Of a stretch of 64,000 nt of DNA, positions 59,473-63,355 are shown piece after piece; the stretch's first letter is position 1; each line of letters begins with the position of its first letter. The stretch is from Herbidospora daliensis. Lineage in GTDB: Bacteria > Actinomycetota > Actinomycetes > Streptosporangiales > Streptosporangiaceae. The stretch covers positions 806,001-870,000 of the forward strand of contig NZ_BBXF01000002.1 of assembly GCF_001570585.1 (NCBI RefSeq), in the 5' to 3' direction. The notes beneath the pieces are model-generated. The model made no database searches, was not told where the DNA came from, and worked only from the letters and a program-made list of their open reading frames with translations. Both the position numbers and the translations under genes were made by a program.

Positions 59473-59594
59473 GAGACCTGCCTTCCTGGGCGGAACTGGG
59501 CGGGAATGGGTCTCACCTCCTCAAGTCGAAGCTCACTACGAAACGCCATCACCCTACCGCACGCCCGACAAGGCGCCGAAAACGGGTGGGCGAA

Positions 59595-59624
59595 TTGAAC
59601 GGTGATCTGTACCGTCTTTAACGT
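59595..59624 (+). promoter_or_regulatory. Promoter of the Y-RNA locus
   Basis: TTGAAC (59595-59600) and TAACGT (59619-59624) are separated by 18 nt, placing transcription start near 59631. That is within 2 nt of the 5' end of the closing stem of the first Y RNA. Confidence 0.55.
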
Positions 59625-59632
59625 CGGTTCGC

Positions 59633-59774
59633 GGATGGCGCGGGTCGAAGACAATCGGTTATCGACTCCGGATCGAGAGGTCGCGGGTTCGAATCCCGCC
59701 CGGGGTGCCACCTGCCCCGGTAGCTCAGCGGTTAGAGCACTTACACCGGTCGTCACACCATATCCGCGCCATTC
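59633..59774 (+). ncRNA. yrlA: Y RNA 1 (YrlA-like, permuted tRNA-like module)
   Basis: The closing stem is G-ATGGCGCGG (59634-59643) with CCGCGCCAT (59764-59772), extended by G-U and G-C pairs. GTCGAAG (59644-59650) fits the Ro/Rsr-binding GNCGAAG consensus known for bacterial Y RNAs. The tRNA-like part is circularly permuted: T-arm GCGGG-TTCGAAT-CCCGC (59683-59699), then acceptor 3' strand CCGGGGT (59700-59706), a 7-nt loop, acceptor 5' strand GCCCCGG (59714-59720), then D-arm GCTC...GAGC (59723-59738). The TROVE gene follows. Confidence 0.85.
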
Positions 59775-59786
59775 TCGCACCGGCAC

Positions 59787-59916
59787 TGGACGGGTCGAAG
59801 TCGTTCGGTTATCCCAACGCGGCGGTTGCGGGTTCGAATCCCGCGGGCTCGGTGAATCGAGCTCTAGTTCAAATGGCAGAGCACCGCGACATCGGTCGGC
59901 ATTGCATATCCGTCCA
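59787..59916 (+). ncRNA. Y RNA 2 (YrlA-like, permuted tRNA-like module)
   Basis: The closing stem is TGGACGG (59787-59793) with CCGTCCA (59910-59916). GTCGAAG (59794-59800) and CGGTTATC are shared with Y RNA 1, as is CATATCC on the 3' side. T-arm GCGGG-TTCGAAT-CCCGC (59828-59844), a 7-bp acceptor-like stem (59845-59851 with 59858-59864, one G-U) closed by a 6-nt loop, and D-arm GTTC...GAGC (59867-59882) follow in the same permuted order. The stems differ in sequence but keep pairing. It ends 23 nt before the TROVE start. Confidence 0.8.
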
Positions 59917-59939
59917 CTCTTGATAACGGAGGAATCGCC

Positions 59940-61547
59940 GTGAACGACATTCGTGACCCCCTCGCCGACGTTTCCGAGATCGGCGCGAAGAAGGTGGAGA
60001 ACGCCGCCGGCGGCGTCGTCTTCGAGAAGGACCTGTGGCAGCGGGTCGAGGACTTCCTCATCCTCGGCACGACCGGGGGCACCTACTACGTCGACGGCGG
60101 CAAGCTGACCGAGATCAACGTCGGCGTCCTCTACAAGGCGCTGCACACCGACGGCCCGCGGGTGGTCGAGATGCTCACCGAGATCTCCACCTCCCGGCCG
60201 CCCCGCGCGCCCAAGAACCAGCCCGCCCTCTTCGCGCTCGCGGCCGCCTACGCGCGCGGCGACGAGGCGACCCGCCGGGCCGCCAAGTCGGCGCTGCCGA
60301 AGGTCGCCCGCACCACCGACCACCTCGCGACCTTCTTCGGCTACTACAAGAACCTCGGCGGCAAGCGGACCTCGCGGGGCACCAGCCCCGTGATGGGCCG
60401 CTCGCTGCGGACCGCCCTCGGCTCGTGGTTCCTGCAGGGCGAGCCCGACGACGTGGCGTTCAAGGTCTGCAAGGCGGGTCAGCGCAAGACGCCCTCGGGC
60501 GAGTCGTTCGCGCTGCGCGACGTGCTGCGGATGGCCCACCCGGCGGGCGACAGCGAGCAGCGCAAGGTGCTGTTCGGCTGGATCGCCGGCAACGTCGGCG
60601 ACGACGCCGCCCGCGCGGTGCTGCCCTCGGTCGACCGGTTCCTCACCGCCAAGGCCGTCACCACGGTCGAGGAGGCGACCCGGCTCGACGTGCCGTGGGA
60701 GTTCCTGCCCGACGCGATGCTGACCGAGCCGAAGGTCTGGGACCACCTCGTCGACACGATCGGCCTGACCGCGCTGCTGCGCAACCTCGCCCGGATGACC
60801 CGCATCGGCACGCTCGTGCCGCTCGGCGACGCCACCCGGCGCGCGGCCGCCCGGCTCACCGCCTTCCACCAGCTCCGCAAGGCGCGTGTCCACCCGCTCG
60901 ACGTGTGGCTCGCGATGCGCGTCTACGCCTCGGGCCAGGGTCGGGGCGGCACGACGTGGACGCCGGTCCCGGCGATCCTCGACGCGCTGGAGGAGGCGTA
61001 CGAGAAGTCCTTCGGCGTCGTCAAGCCGACTGGCAAGAAGCTGCTGCTCGCGGTCGACTCGTCGGGCTCGATGACGTACGCGCGGTGCGTGGTCGGCGGC
61101 TCGCCCATCGGCACGCCGTACGAGGTCGGCTCGGCCATGGCCGTCATGCTGGCGCGCATCGAGAAGGGCAACGTGCACGCCATCGAGGTCGACACCGCGG
61201 TGCACCGCTCGAAGGTGAGCGCGCGCACCAACCTGCGCGACATCGCCACGTGGCGGGCGTCGGGCGGCGGCACCGACCTGTCGATGCCGTTCCGGCACCT
61301 GCTCCGGGAGCGGATGAACGTCGACGGCGTCGTCGTCTTCACCGACAACGAGACGTGGGCGGGCCGGGGCGAGCCCGCGGACCAGTTCGACCGCTACCGC
61401 AAGACGGTCAACCCGCAGACGCGGCTCGTCGTCGCGGCGATGACGGCGGCCGGCTACTCGATCGCCGACCACACCGACCCGAACTCGCTCAACGTCGTCG
61501 GCCTCGACGCGTCGCTGCCGATGATCGTGAACGGTTTCGTCCGCTAA
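59940..61547 (+). CDS. rsr: TROVE-domain Ro60 orthologue (Rsr-like)
   Basis: This is a 535-residue RNA-binding ring protein. The TROVE/HEAT-repeat ring (about 25-350) starts FLILGTTGGTYYVDGGKLT. The C-terminal vWA domain (about 365-535) has a complete MIDAS: Asp373, Ser375 and Ser377 in AVDSSGSMTY, plus TDLSMPF. Bacterial Ro proteins bind Y RNAs and misfolded RNAs, and in Deinococcus they tether PNPase for structured-RNA decay. GGAGGA precedes GTG 59940. Two Y RNAs lie directly upstream and probably share the transcript. Its 3' end overlaps the sigma-fusion gene by 4 bp. Confidence 0.95.
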   Translation: MNDIRDPLADVSEIGAKKVENAAGGVVFEKDLWQRVEDFLILGTTGGTYYVDGGKLTEINVGVLYKALHTDGPRVVEMLTEISTSRPPRAPKNQPALFALAAAYARGDEATRRAAKSALPKVARTTDHLATFFGYYKNLGGKRTSRGTSPVMGRSLRTALGSWFLQGEPDDVAFKVCKAGQRKTPSGESFALRDVLRMAHPAGDSEQRKVLFGWIAGNVGDDAARAVLPSVDRFLTAKAVTTVEEATRLDVPWEFLPDAMLTEPKVWDHLVDTIGLTALLRNLARMTRIGTLVPLGDATRRAAARLTAFHQLRKARVHPLDVWLAMRVYASGQGRGGTTWTPVPAILDALEEAYEKSFGVVKPTGKKLLLAVDSSGSMTYARCVVGGSPIGTPYEVGSAMAVMLARIEKGNVHAIEVDTAVHRSKVSARTNLRDIATWRASGGGTDLSMPFRHLLRERMNVDGVVVFTDNETWAGRGEPADQFDRYRKTVNPQTRLVVAAMTAAGYSIADHTDPNSLNVVGLDASLPMIVNGFVR

Positions 61548-63355
61548 CGGGCCCGCTGGAACGCCTTGCCGGCCCGGGTCGCGACGCCGTCCTCGGTGAA
61601 CAGCCCGCTGTTCGGTTCGGCCTCCTTGGCGGGGAGGCCGAACCACGCGTACCGGTGCACGTAGGGCAGTGACGCGAGCATCTTCGACGAGGCGGCCAGG
61701 AAGGCGGCCTGCTCTTCGTCGGAGGCGTACTGGGCGCCGTCGGAGAAGTCGATCAGGGCGTACTCGGTCAGCCAGATCGGCTTCTTGTACCGCTGGTAGA
61801 CGTTCTGGAGATAGCTCTTGAGCTGCTGCGTCGCGGCCGAGGCGCGGAAGTCGCCGCCGTACCAGTGCAGCGTGACGAAGTCGACGCGGTAGCCGTTCGC
61901 CTTGGCGCCCTTCATGAAACGGTCGAGCCAGCCGCCCGGGGTGTCGCCGCCGAAGGCCACGCCGGGGGAGCCGAGGATCTTCCCGGCCTTCTCCAGCTGC
62001 GGCCACAACTCCAGGGCGCGTTCGACCGTCATGTTCGACTGCTGGGCCAGGTCGGGCTCGTTGAAGCTCAGCAGGTACGGACCCGCCTTCTTGGCCTCCG
62101 CCAGCGCCTTCGGCGTGACGCTGTCGGCGCCCCAGATCATCGGCACGAACTCGACGTTCCTGGGGGTCTGTACGCCGTTCTGGTGGGTCGCCCAGGTGTA
62201 GTACCAGCGCGCCCCCGACTTGGCCAGCGAGTTGCTGACCCCGTTCATCGGCCACACCCCGACGCCCTTCTTCACCGCCGGGGCGGCGGGCGGCGGAGGC
62301 GGCGCCTCGGGCGACTTCGACGGCTTCGGCGAGGGCTTCTTCGACGGTTTCGGGCTCGGGCTCGGCTTGCGCACGGGCGTCTTCGACGGCGTCGGGCTCT
62401 CGGCGACCACCACGGGCGGGGGCACGGCGACGGGTTTGGGCGGCGCGGGGCTCGTCCAGGGCTGCAGGACGAACACCCCCGCCGTCACCGCCGCGGCGCC
62501 GGCGGCCGTGAGCGGGATCCAGAGGTTCTTGGCCGCCACGGCGGTCGTCTTGATCGTCACCGGTACGAGCTTGCTGAGCAGGAACCCGGCCGGCACCGCC
62601 ACCAGGGGCAGCCCGAGCAGCAGCCGCTCCAGGGGCACCATGCCCTGGGTGCGGCGGCCGCAGAACGTACACCCCCTGATGTGCCGGGCGAACCGTTTGC
62701 GCCACAGCGGCGACGGCACCCCGTCCCAGCCGAGGAACATGCCCCGGAGCTCGGGGCACTGGGCCTGCGCGTTCAGGCAGCGCACGACCGACTGCGCGAT
62801 CTGGATCTGCTCCTTCATGCGCTGCACCCGCACGGCCGCGTGCTTGGCCGACAACCCGAGCGACGAGGCGAGGTCGGCGCGCCCGAGTTCCCCGGTCTCC
62901 TCTAGCCACCAGAGCGACAACAGCGCCCGGTCGTCGGGGTCGAGCCAGCGGGTCGCCTCGGCGACCTCGCGCCGCTGGTCGGTCAGCCCCAGCTGGAGGA
63001 TGGTCAGCCCGGCGAAGTCGGAGGCGGGGTCGGCCACCTCGGTCGCCGTGTCGAGGTCGGTCCGGCGGTGGTGGGCGGTGCGCTTCTCGGCTTCGTGGTC
63101 GCGTACCTGCCGGACCGCGATCGCCACCAGCCACGAGCGGTAGGCGTCGAGATCCCGCAGCCCCGGCAGCCCGCGGACCATCCGGATCAGGGTCTCCTGG
63201 ACGACGTCGTCGGTGTCGTTGTGCCCGTTCAGCGCCCGTCCGACGATGTTGTAGACGAGCGGCAGGGAGTCGGCGACCAGGCGGTCGAGGGCAGCCTGAT
63301 CCCCGTCGCGTGCCGCCGCGACCATCGCCGTGTCGGGTCCGCTCCTCGCTGGCAT
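61544..63355 (-). CDS. ECF-like sigma factor fused to zinc motif, membrane segments and GH128-like glucanase domain
   Basis: This is a 603-residue fusion. Sigma-2 (about 20-92, DDVVQETLIRMVRGL) and sigma-4 (about 130-185, LASSLGLSAKHAAVRVQRMK) are followed by an anti-sigma-type HIRGCTFC zinc motif (His225, Cys229, Cys232). Two hydrophobic segments (about 245-262 and 278-298) and a Pro/Ser/Lys-rich linker (about 300-360) follow. Residues about 362-603 form an Asl1/GH128-like barrel with Glu433 in FNEPD and Glu531 in WLTEYAL as likely catalytic pair. GAAGGGG precedes the ATG. Wall-glucan sensing linked to transcription is inference. Confidence 0.87.
   Translation of the reverse strand: MPARSGPDTAMVAAARDGDQAALDRLVADSLPLVYNIVGRALNGHNDTDDVVQETLIRMVRGLPGLRDLDAYRSWLVAIAVRQVRDHEAEKRTAHHRRTDLDTATEVADPASDFAGLTILQLGLTDQRREVAEATRWLDPDDRALLSLWWLEETGELGRADLASSLGLSAKHAAVRVQRMKEQIQIAQSVVRCLNAQAQCPELRGMFLGWDGVPSPLWRKRFARHIRGCTFCGRRTQGMVPLERLLLGLPLVAVPAGFLLSKLVPVTIKTTAVAAKNLWIPLTAAGAAAVTAGVFVLQPWTSPAPPKPVAVPPPVVVAESPTPSKTPVRKPSPSPKPSKKPSPKPSKSPEAPPPPPAAPAVKKGVGVWPMNGVSNSLAKSGARWYYTWATHQNGVQTPRNVEFVPMIWGADSVTPKALAEAKKAGPYLLSFNEPDLAQQSNMTVERALELWPQLEKAGKILGSPGVAFGGDTPGGWLDRFMKGAKANGYRVDFVTLHWYGGDFRASAATQQLKSYLQNVYQRYKKPIWLTEYALIDFSDGAQYASDEEQAAFLAASSKMLASLPYVHRYAWFGLPAKEAEPNSGLFTEDGVATRAGKAFQRAR

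Follow-up and report, generated by a model that had tools for sequence, protein, structure and literature searches.

Two kinds of tRNA-like Y RNA upstream of the Ro60 gene of Herbidospora daliensis, one with a possible anticodon-arm-like hairpin

Metazoan Y RNAs are bound by Ro60 and have a closing stem with a conserved motif; to our knowledge, they have no tRNA-like module. In the permuted tRNA genes of algae and archaea, the 3′ half of the tRNA is encoded ahead of the 5′ half and the products are processed to functional tRNAs. For bacteria, the available parts of published accounts describe a circularly permuted Y RNA (PMC11472068), whose tRNA-like domain has been likened to the D, T, and acceptor arms (review, PMC8394870) and which, as YrlA, is modified by the tRNA enzymes DusA and TruB (PMC8394870). 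According to the same kind of excerpts, Rsr binds the basal stem of the Y RNA and the tRNA-like part reaches PNPase (PMC8394870, PMC8058203, and PMC7790460), and in Salmonella the tRNA-like domain of YrlA has been proposed to inhibit an anticodon nuclease by competition (PMC7790460). Tandem Y RNAs, circular permutation, and mimicry of the D, T, and acceptor arms are already known.

The two RNAs described here have in common with bacterial Y RNA of the YrlA type (RF02553; Salmonella YrlA, PDB 6CU1) the linkage to Ro60, a closing stem with the Ro motif, and the permuted order of T arm, acceptor, and D arm. In the Salmonella rsr-yrlBA-rtcBA operon, two Y RNAs likewise stand in tandem beside Ro60, as far as the available text of PMC7790460 goes. 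By the name of that operon, the Y RNAs follow rsr and precede rtcBA, whereas here they precede Ro60; no RtcB- or RtcA-type protein was found among the four proteins scanned around the Y RNAs, in a window that ends 2.5 kb past Ro60.

Two tandem RNAs and the Ro60 gene

The window, a stretch of 64,000 nucleotides, belongs to the 8.5-Mb genome of the soil actinomycete Herbidospora daliensis. A search of the genome for TROVE genes found its Ro60 ortholog and no other, and the closest named relatives, judged by Ro60, are six Herbidospora species with 88-95% identity in the best segment. Two RNAs, Y1 and Y2, lie back to back directly upstream of this gene on the same strand, at 59633-59916, where the preliminary description had placed them. 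They are separated by 14 nt, and a further 23 nt, with the ribosome-binding-type sequence GGAGGA inside, lead from the end of Y2 to the GTG start of Ro60. A simple scan of 59480-60000 found no sigma-70-type promoter or terminator. A gatctgTACCGTctttaa block upstream of Y1 is nearly invariant across the window and the six Herbidospora species. The features are listed below with the evidence for each in parentheses; R1 denotes a covariance model built from 30 Y1-type RNAs, with Y1 included and Y2 excluded.

59635-59772, + strand: Y1 RNA, candidate four-arm (class B) Y RNA (R1, 133.6 bits, trained on a set that includes Y1; Rfam YrlA, 40.8 bits)
59635-59645, + strand: Y1 closing stem, 5′ strand, partner 59762-59772 (fold; helix 1 of the Y1-type alignment)
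59643-59650, + strand: Y1 GGTCGAAG Ro-binding-type motif (sequence)
59650-59658, + strand: Y1 second stem, 5′ strand, partner 59746-59754, one mismatch (fold; helix 2 of the alignment)
59662-59676, + strand: Y1 putative anticodon-arm-like hairpin TCGA-CTCCGGA-TCGA, loop 59666-59672 (comparative; absent from the minimum-energy fold)
59683-59699, + strand: Y1 T arm GCGGG TTCGAAT CCCGC (Rfam alignment; helix 4 of the Y1-type alignment)
59700-59720, + strand: Y1 acceptor-like hairpin, 7 bp, loop GCCACCT (fold; outer 5 pairs are helix 5)
59723-59738, + strand: Y1 D arm, with TA before it as U8-A9 (Rfam alignment and Y1-type alignment)
59787-59916, + strand: Y2 RNA, YrlA-type three-arm Y RNA (R1, 85.9 bits, E 3e-17; Rfam YrlA, 31.4 bits)
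59787-59794, + strand: Y2 closing stem, 5′ strand, partner 59909-59916 (fold; helix 1, invariant in 7 sequences)
59793-59800, + strand: Y2 GGTCGAAG motif (sequence)
59818-59822, + strand: Y2 enclosing stem, 5′ strand, partner 59884-59888 (helix 3; partly in the Rfam YrlA alignment)
59828-59844, + strand: Y2 T arm (Rfam alignment; 7-sequence alignment)
59845-59864, + strand: Y2 acceptor-like hairpin, 7 bp, loop GTGAAT (helix 5, 4 doubly changed pairs in 7 sequences)
59867-59882, + strand: Y2 D arm (Rfam alignment; 7-sequence alignment)
59940-61547, + strand: Ro60 ortholog, TROVE plus vWA_Ro60 (Pfam vWA_Ro60, 125 bits; TROVE, 71.7 bits)

The GGTCGAAG motif is presumably the Ro-binding motif, a role and a consensus that we assume here. 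The shorter GTCGAAG named in the preliminary description occurs in both RNAs, in both the T arm is followed by the acceptor hairpin and then the D arm, as it stated, and the stems that it quoted, ATGGCGCGG/CCGCGCCAT and TGGACGG/CCGTCCA, are real and conserved. Its general picture, tandem Y RNAs with permuted tRNA-like modules upstream of Ro60 and paralogs that are unlike on the anticodon side, was borne out. Downstream, a 603-amino-acid frame on the minus strand (61544-63355), which combines sigma-70 region 2 with a glycosyl hydrolase catalytic-core domain, is convergent with Ro60 and overlaps its end by 4 bases.

Conserved pairing and relation to YrlA

Pairing in Y1 was analyzed in an alignment of 30 Y1-type RNAs, which were retrieved by the Ro motif and picked for carrying the anticodon-arm-like hairpin; 7 of 37 hairpin-bearing cores, from other array classes and Enemella, were excluded. 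The choice of rows for the hairpin contributes no pairing to the acceptor, T, and closing stems. In this alignment, 98.8% of the cells were paired, and covariation reached 0.364, compared to 0.157 in shuffles, none of 500 of which attained the observed value; sliding the partner strands lowered the pairing to 33-46%. The closing stem (helix 1) had 97.1% of its cells paired and 4 doubly changed pairs, and 4 of the outer 5 pairs of the acceptor helix 5 were doubly changed. The GGTCGAAG motif showed little or no variation across the 30 rows, which had been retrieved by a pattern with GTCGAA-type letters. For Y2, an alignment of the window and the six Herbidospora species had 95.6% of the cells paired and 8 doubly changed pairs, a number reached in none of 500 shuffles (mean, 3.0). 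Folding energy gave weaker evidence, with z = -2.68 for Y1 (3 of 200 shuffles as good) and z = -1.08 for Y2 (27 of 200).

The YrlA covariance search suggested in the preliminary description matched both RNAs, Y1 with E 1.6e-6 and Y2 with E 8.3e-4, at the 40.8 and 31.4 bits listed above, both below the Rfam gathering cut-off of 69 bits. Y1 and Y2 are related to RF02553 but are not members by score. As bacterial Y RNAs they are identified by adjacency to Ro60 and by a closing stem that joins the ends and carries the Ro-type motif. The order of T arm, acceptor, and D arm of RF02553 is present in both alignments. The short enclosing stem of YrlA is present in Y2, where it occupies the place of an anticodon arm and has 3 doubly changed pairs in 7 sequences; at that place Y1 fits the YrlA alignment poorly and can hold the anticodon-arm-like hairpin instead. 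The three-arm architecture given in the preliminary description thus stood for Y2, with its enclosing stem, and did not stand for Y1, in which comparative evidence points to four arms.

Model R1 recovered Y2 at the score listed, with Y2 absent from its training. At E ≤0.001 it matched 225 of 394 and 160 of 200 genomes, counts that are not equal to Y RNA counts: many of the listed matches span positions 26-102 only; such partial matches coincide with annotated tRNAs in one phage (L087). ARAGORN found zero tRNAs in the window, and the Rfam tRNA model reached 23.1 bits, under its cut-off of 29 bits. The preliminary description had named a score as ordinary degenerate tRNAs, with no closing-stem conservation in relatives, as a result that would speak against it. 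Neither program returned such a score, and both the 30-row and the 7-sequence alignments show conservation of the closing stem in relatives. The linkage of Y1 and Y2 to Ro60 and the anatomy of the RNAs are well supported.

The acceptor loop of Y1, GCCACCT, was considered as a discriminator base followed by CCA and was rejected as a general feature. GCCA occurs at this place in 6 of the 30 Y1-type rows, all from this genus (6 of its 7), and GCCA strings in 5 other rows lie at the junction of T arm and acceptor or, in one, at the stem-loop border. No conserved CCA end was present outside the genus among these rows.

An anticodon-arm-like hairpin in Y1 and its relatives

The hairpin was defined as a Watson-Crick stem of at least 3 bp around a 7-nt loop of the form [CT]-T-N-N-N-[AG]-N. 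It was sought in 113 Y RNAs collected, blind to the hairpin, by the Ro motif upstream of Ro60 at 51 loci and in the window. These gave 79 distinct segments leading to the T arm, and after exclusion of 10 segments shorter than 13 nt, 69 remained. The hairpin was present in 31 of the 69, whereas 300 dinucleotide shuffles averaged 0.78 and never exceeded 5; since the sequences are related, this and the other shuffle figures overstate significance and are no true probabilities. Loops of 5, 6, 8, and 9 nt were found in 0, 1, 1, and 1 of the same segments, respectively. In a second collection, 30 of 38 new distinct segments had the hairpin (mean in shuffles, 0.62); this collection, from the best matches listed for R1 at 55 loci, was not blind, as R1 contains the hairpin. 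Segments with no recognized T arm had the hairpin in 11 of 24 distinct cases (shuffle mean, 0.46; maximum, 3), a figure that is indicative only, as the group includes three RNAs whose T arm was missed by the pattern (L033 at 1987, L038 at 2147, and L040 at 2320) and U33 may be favored simply by the UUAUCUC-like sequence that minimal Y RNAs carry.

The loops tend to behave like anticodon loops in their sequences. Among 26 distinct loops, position 37 was G in 5 of the 6 with 36G and A in 19 of the 20 in which 36 was not G (Fisher p 5e-4); with both collections pooled, 7 of 41 loops violated this rule (cells 8, 3, 4, and 26; p 6e-4). The tRNAs of the H. daliensis genome kept it in 12 of 12 and 35 of 36 cases. 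Fourteen of the 26 loop types were identical to a tRNA loop of the host genome and 12 to none; the mean expected by chance, with column frequencies preserved, was 5.8, and 14 was reached in 1 of 2,000 draws. The Y1 loop, CTCCGGA, is the loop of tRNA-Arg(ccg) in the host genome. Hairpin pairs in the Y1-type alignment also changed on both sides, from C-G to G-C in 10 rows and from A-U to G-C or C-G in 6, in rows that had been selected for having the hairpin.

Energy calculations gave a different picture, and the minimum-energy fold of Y1 alone had no anticodon-arm hairpin and preferred other small helices. When 66 short segments were folded, a test that is weak for this hairpin, 7-nt loops formed in 12 (shuffle mean, 3.4; maximum, 8), 5 of them with T33 (shuffle mean, 1.0; maximum, 5). 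The stem has 3-5 bp, mostly fewer than the 5 of tRNA. In Y2, neither the hairpin pattern search nor the 7-sequence alignment found an anticodon-arm-like hairpin.

A possible hairpin with a 7-nt loop at 59662-59676 of Y1 would lie in the position of an anticodon arm, and the modules of Y1 would follow each other as anticodon arm, T arm, acceptor hairpin, TA, and D arm. On this evidence, Y1 may be described as a circular permutation of tRNA, opened between the D arm and the anticodon arm, with the Ro-binding stem inserted there. The comparative evidence suggests four tRNA-like arms in Y1 and three in Y2, a difference in architecture beyond that in sequence. The order of the halves is like that in permuted tRNA genes, from which Y1 differs by the Ro-binding stem at the breakpoint and by a CCA that is unconserved beyond the genus. 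With metazoan Y RNAs, Y1 and Y2 share the closing stem and its motif, but not the tRNA-like module, which metazoan Y RNAs are not known to have.

No anticodon arm in a Y RNA was found in the literature covered, which included the available parts of PMC8394870, PMC11472068, PMC7790460, PMC6340977, PMC8058203, PMC4030889, and PMC9569102, with the primary descriptions of 2014 and 2018 outside this scope. The feature is new by that literature and may already be in print.

Y RNA arrays, possible roles, and a second RNA pair

The preliminary description had set the tandem pair apart from the known YrlA RNAs. Such a pair is published for Salmonella in the available text of PMC7790460, and arrays are frequent in relatives, with two to four Y RNAs at 38 of 51 Ro60 loci by the strict motif. 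Four Y RNAs were counted at 8 loci, three at 12, two at 18, one at 7, and none at 6, numbers that are lower bounds, as some loci are cut or have variant motifs. By eye, the classes of the arrays recur in a fairly constant order and include short RNAs with no tRNA-like module, some of them with the anticodon-arm-like hairpin alone, four-arm RNAs, RNAs with a Glu-type or missing D arm, and YrlA-type RNAs closest to Ro60. Two four-member arrays (L033:1862-2450 and L025:1846-2449) consist of distinct classes, among which are RNAs with a Glu-type D arm and closing stems lengthened to over 20 bp.

A further type of Y RNA found with R1 has GGTGCGNAGG in place of GGTCGAAG, with the hairpin present. 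At two of its loci (L155:1501-1639 and L166:1501-1900), a TROVE protein is encoded downstream (53.4 and 45.6 bits, respectively); at a third, L158, no recognizable TROVE protein was found within 1.5 kb. At Ro60 loci of the phages Gordonia BearBQ and Microbacterium FuzzBuster, a Y1-like hairpin appears by eye to be present, and phage Y RNAs (L146:1689-1825 and L149:1639-1773) lie under R1 matches scoring 102.2 and 112.5 bits.

Among the window and four Herbidospora species, all with Ro60 genes of equal length, mean pairwise differences were 0.068 for Y1 and 0.165 for Y2; Ro60 differed by 0.056 overall and by 0.088 at third sites. Y1 is nearly fixed and Y2 is drifting with compensation, an inequality that would be compatible with different duties of the two RNAs.

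We consider it rather probable that Ro60 carries two kinds of tRNA mimic here, the four-arm Y1 and the YrlA-type Y2, with a function that we infer. Because the gaps are only 14 and 23 nt and no promoter or terminator was found, Y1 and Y2 would be transcribed together with the Ro60 gene and then excised from its leader. By analogy with the published Ro-Y system, each would bind the one kind of Ro60 ring by way of its closing stem together with the GGTCGAAG motif and, once bound, would present its tRNA-like part outward. That of Y2 would have the published YrlA form of T, acceptor, and D arms with a short enclosing stem, and that of Y1 would be a fuller permutation, with an anticodon-arm-like loop that keeps U33 and a tRNA-like purine 37. 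One mimic may dock partners that bind the tRNA core or act in RNA decay, as reported for YrlA; Y1 may additionally engage readers of the anticodon loop, such as modification enzymes, synthetases, or anticodon nucleases. The RNAs would thereby serve as Ro60-tethered tRNA mimics or decoys.

A simpler reading takes both RNAs as ordinary Y tethers between Ro60 and PNPase, as in Deinococcus, and the Y1 hairpin as a mere structural cap with no reader. It agrees with the available part of PMC8394870, where YrlA acts as a tether and has D, T, and acceptor arms, with the lack of an anticodon-arm-like hairpin in Y2, and with an "anticodon" that varies freely among species (26 loop types). A plain cap, however, would need neither U33, nor the 36/37 rule, nor loops identical to those of true tRNAs, and we regard this reading as a serious possibility while leaning against it.

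Copying of the tRNA arms from tRNA genes by recombination, with retention by drift and the loop rule as a relic of that origin, appears quite unlikely. The 5′-acceptor strand and D arm of Y1 did match tRNA-Arg(ccg) best, tied with Arg(cct), Y1 shares the ccg loop, and 14 of the 26 loop types are host tRNA loops. Over its whole length, however, Y1 best matched Arg(tct), unlike the arm-wise best matches, stems changed with compensation across several genera, and loops vary inside one genus (CTCCGGA, CTTCGGA, and TTCTGGA) while U33 and G37 are kept. Still less probable is an array that acts as a structured 5′ leader regulating Ro60 expression, with the RNAs unreleased: the short gaps from Y1 through Y2 to the start codon and the simple scan that found no separate promoter or terminator suit it, but Ro-type motifs, a closing stem for each RNA, similarity to YrlA, and array numbers that differ among relatives do not. 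Degenerate or permuted tRNA genes yielding functional tRNAs are barely credible, as the ability of Y1 to form all four arms and the GCCA after its acceptor strand are set against the negative ARAGORN result, the sub-threshold Rfam tRNA score, the limitation of GCCA at that place to this genus among the 30 Y1-type rows, and loops such as CTATTAA that are no host tRNA loop.

Under the favored reading of two mimics on one protein, an anticodon-arm mimic that largely obeys tRNA loop rules would explain why there are several Y RNAs per Ro60 ring. It would also make the proposal of an anticodon-nuclease inhibitor, as worded in the available part of PMC7790460, directly testable, because a slow-changing four-arm RNA and a fast-changing three-arm RNA adjoin in this locus. 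The part of such an inhibitor would suit an RNA that displays an anticodon loop better than it suits YrlA. A broader proposal, which we hold to be rather doubtful, is that actinobacterial and phage Ro60 loci are panels of Y RNAs with distinct genuine anticodon loops that decoy or report anticodon-reading enzymes, above all the anticodon nucleases of stress and phage defense. If so, the arrays' minimal Y RNAs would consist of nothing but an anticodon arm, and an unlinked RNA pair beside a DUF7873 gene would form a second, parallel system that has a binding protein of its own.

This second pair was found in the host genome at G000:C5:221601-221839, with YrlA matches of 20.8 bits (E 0.27) and 37.4 bits (E 4e-6) in a search at a lax E ≤10, in which 13 of 14 control genomes matched too and weak rows mean little. 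A DUF7873 gene (386 bits) lies upstream (region G000:C5:220798-221840; gene at L005:698-1435), and the RNAs downstream of it (L005:1501-1740) are permuted tRNA-like. The TROVE search of the genome found no TROVE gene at this locus, and a literature search found no paper naming DUF7873. The family was detected in 14 of 60 genomes searched, the host included. In 13 of the 14, two pairs of T-loop and D-like motifs followed the gene at about 87-138 and 227-285 nt, and the remaining genome had the second motif pair only.

DUF7873 was also present in 73 of 50,697 phage records, and the phage gene sometimes lies within tRNA arrays. Among five phage regions with the gene, three had a YrlA match in the 3′-adjacent noncoding gap (L086, L087, and L090; E 0.002 to 9e-5), as did three of nine viral contigs (L077, L083, and, weakly, L078 with E 0.11). 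An AlphaFold model of a viral member had a mean pLDDT of 81.5. Its Foldseek comparison with the PDB gave no match at E ≤0.001 (best E 0.02, TM 0.12) and yielded no relation to Ro60. The control genome of Deinobacterium chartae matched both TROVE and DUF7873, so that coexistence of the two systems may extend beyond actinobacteria.
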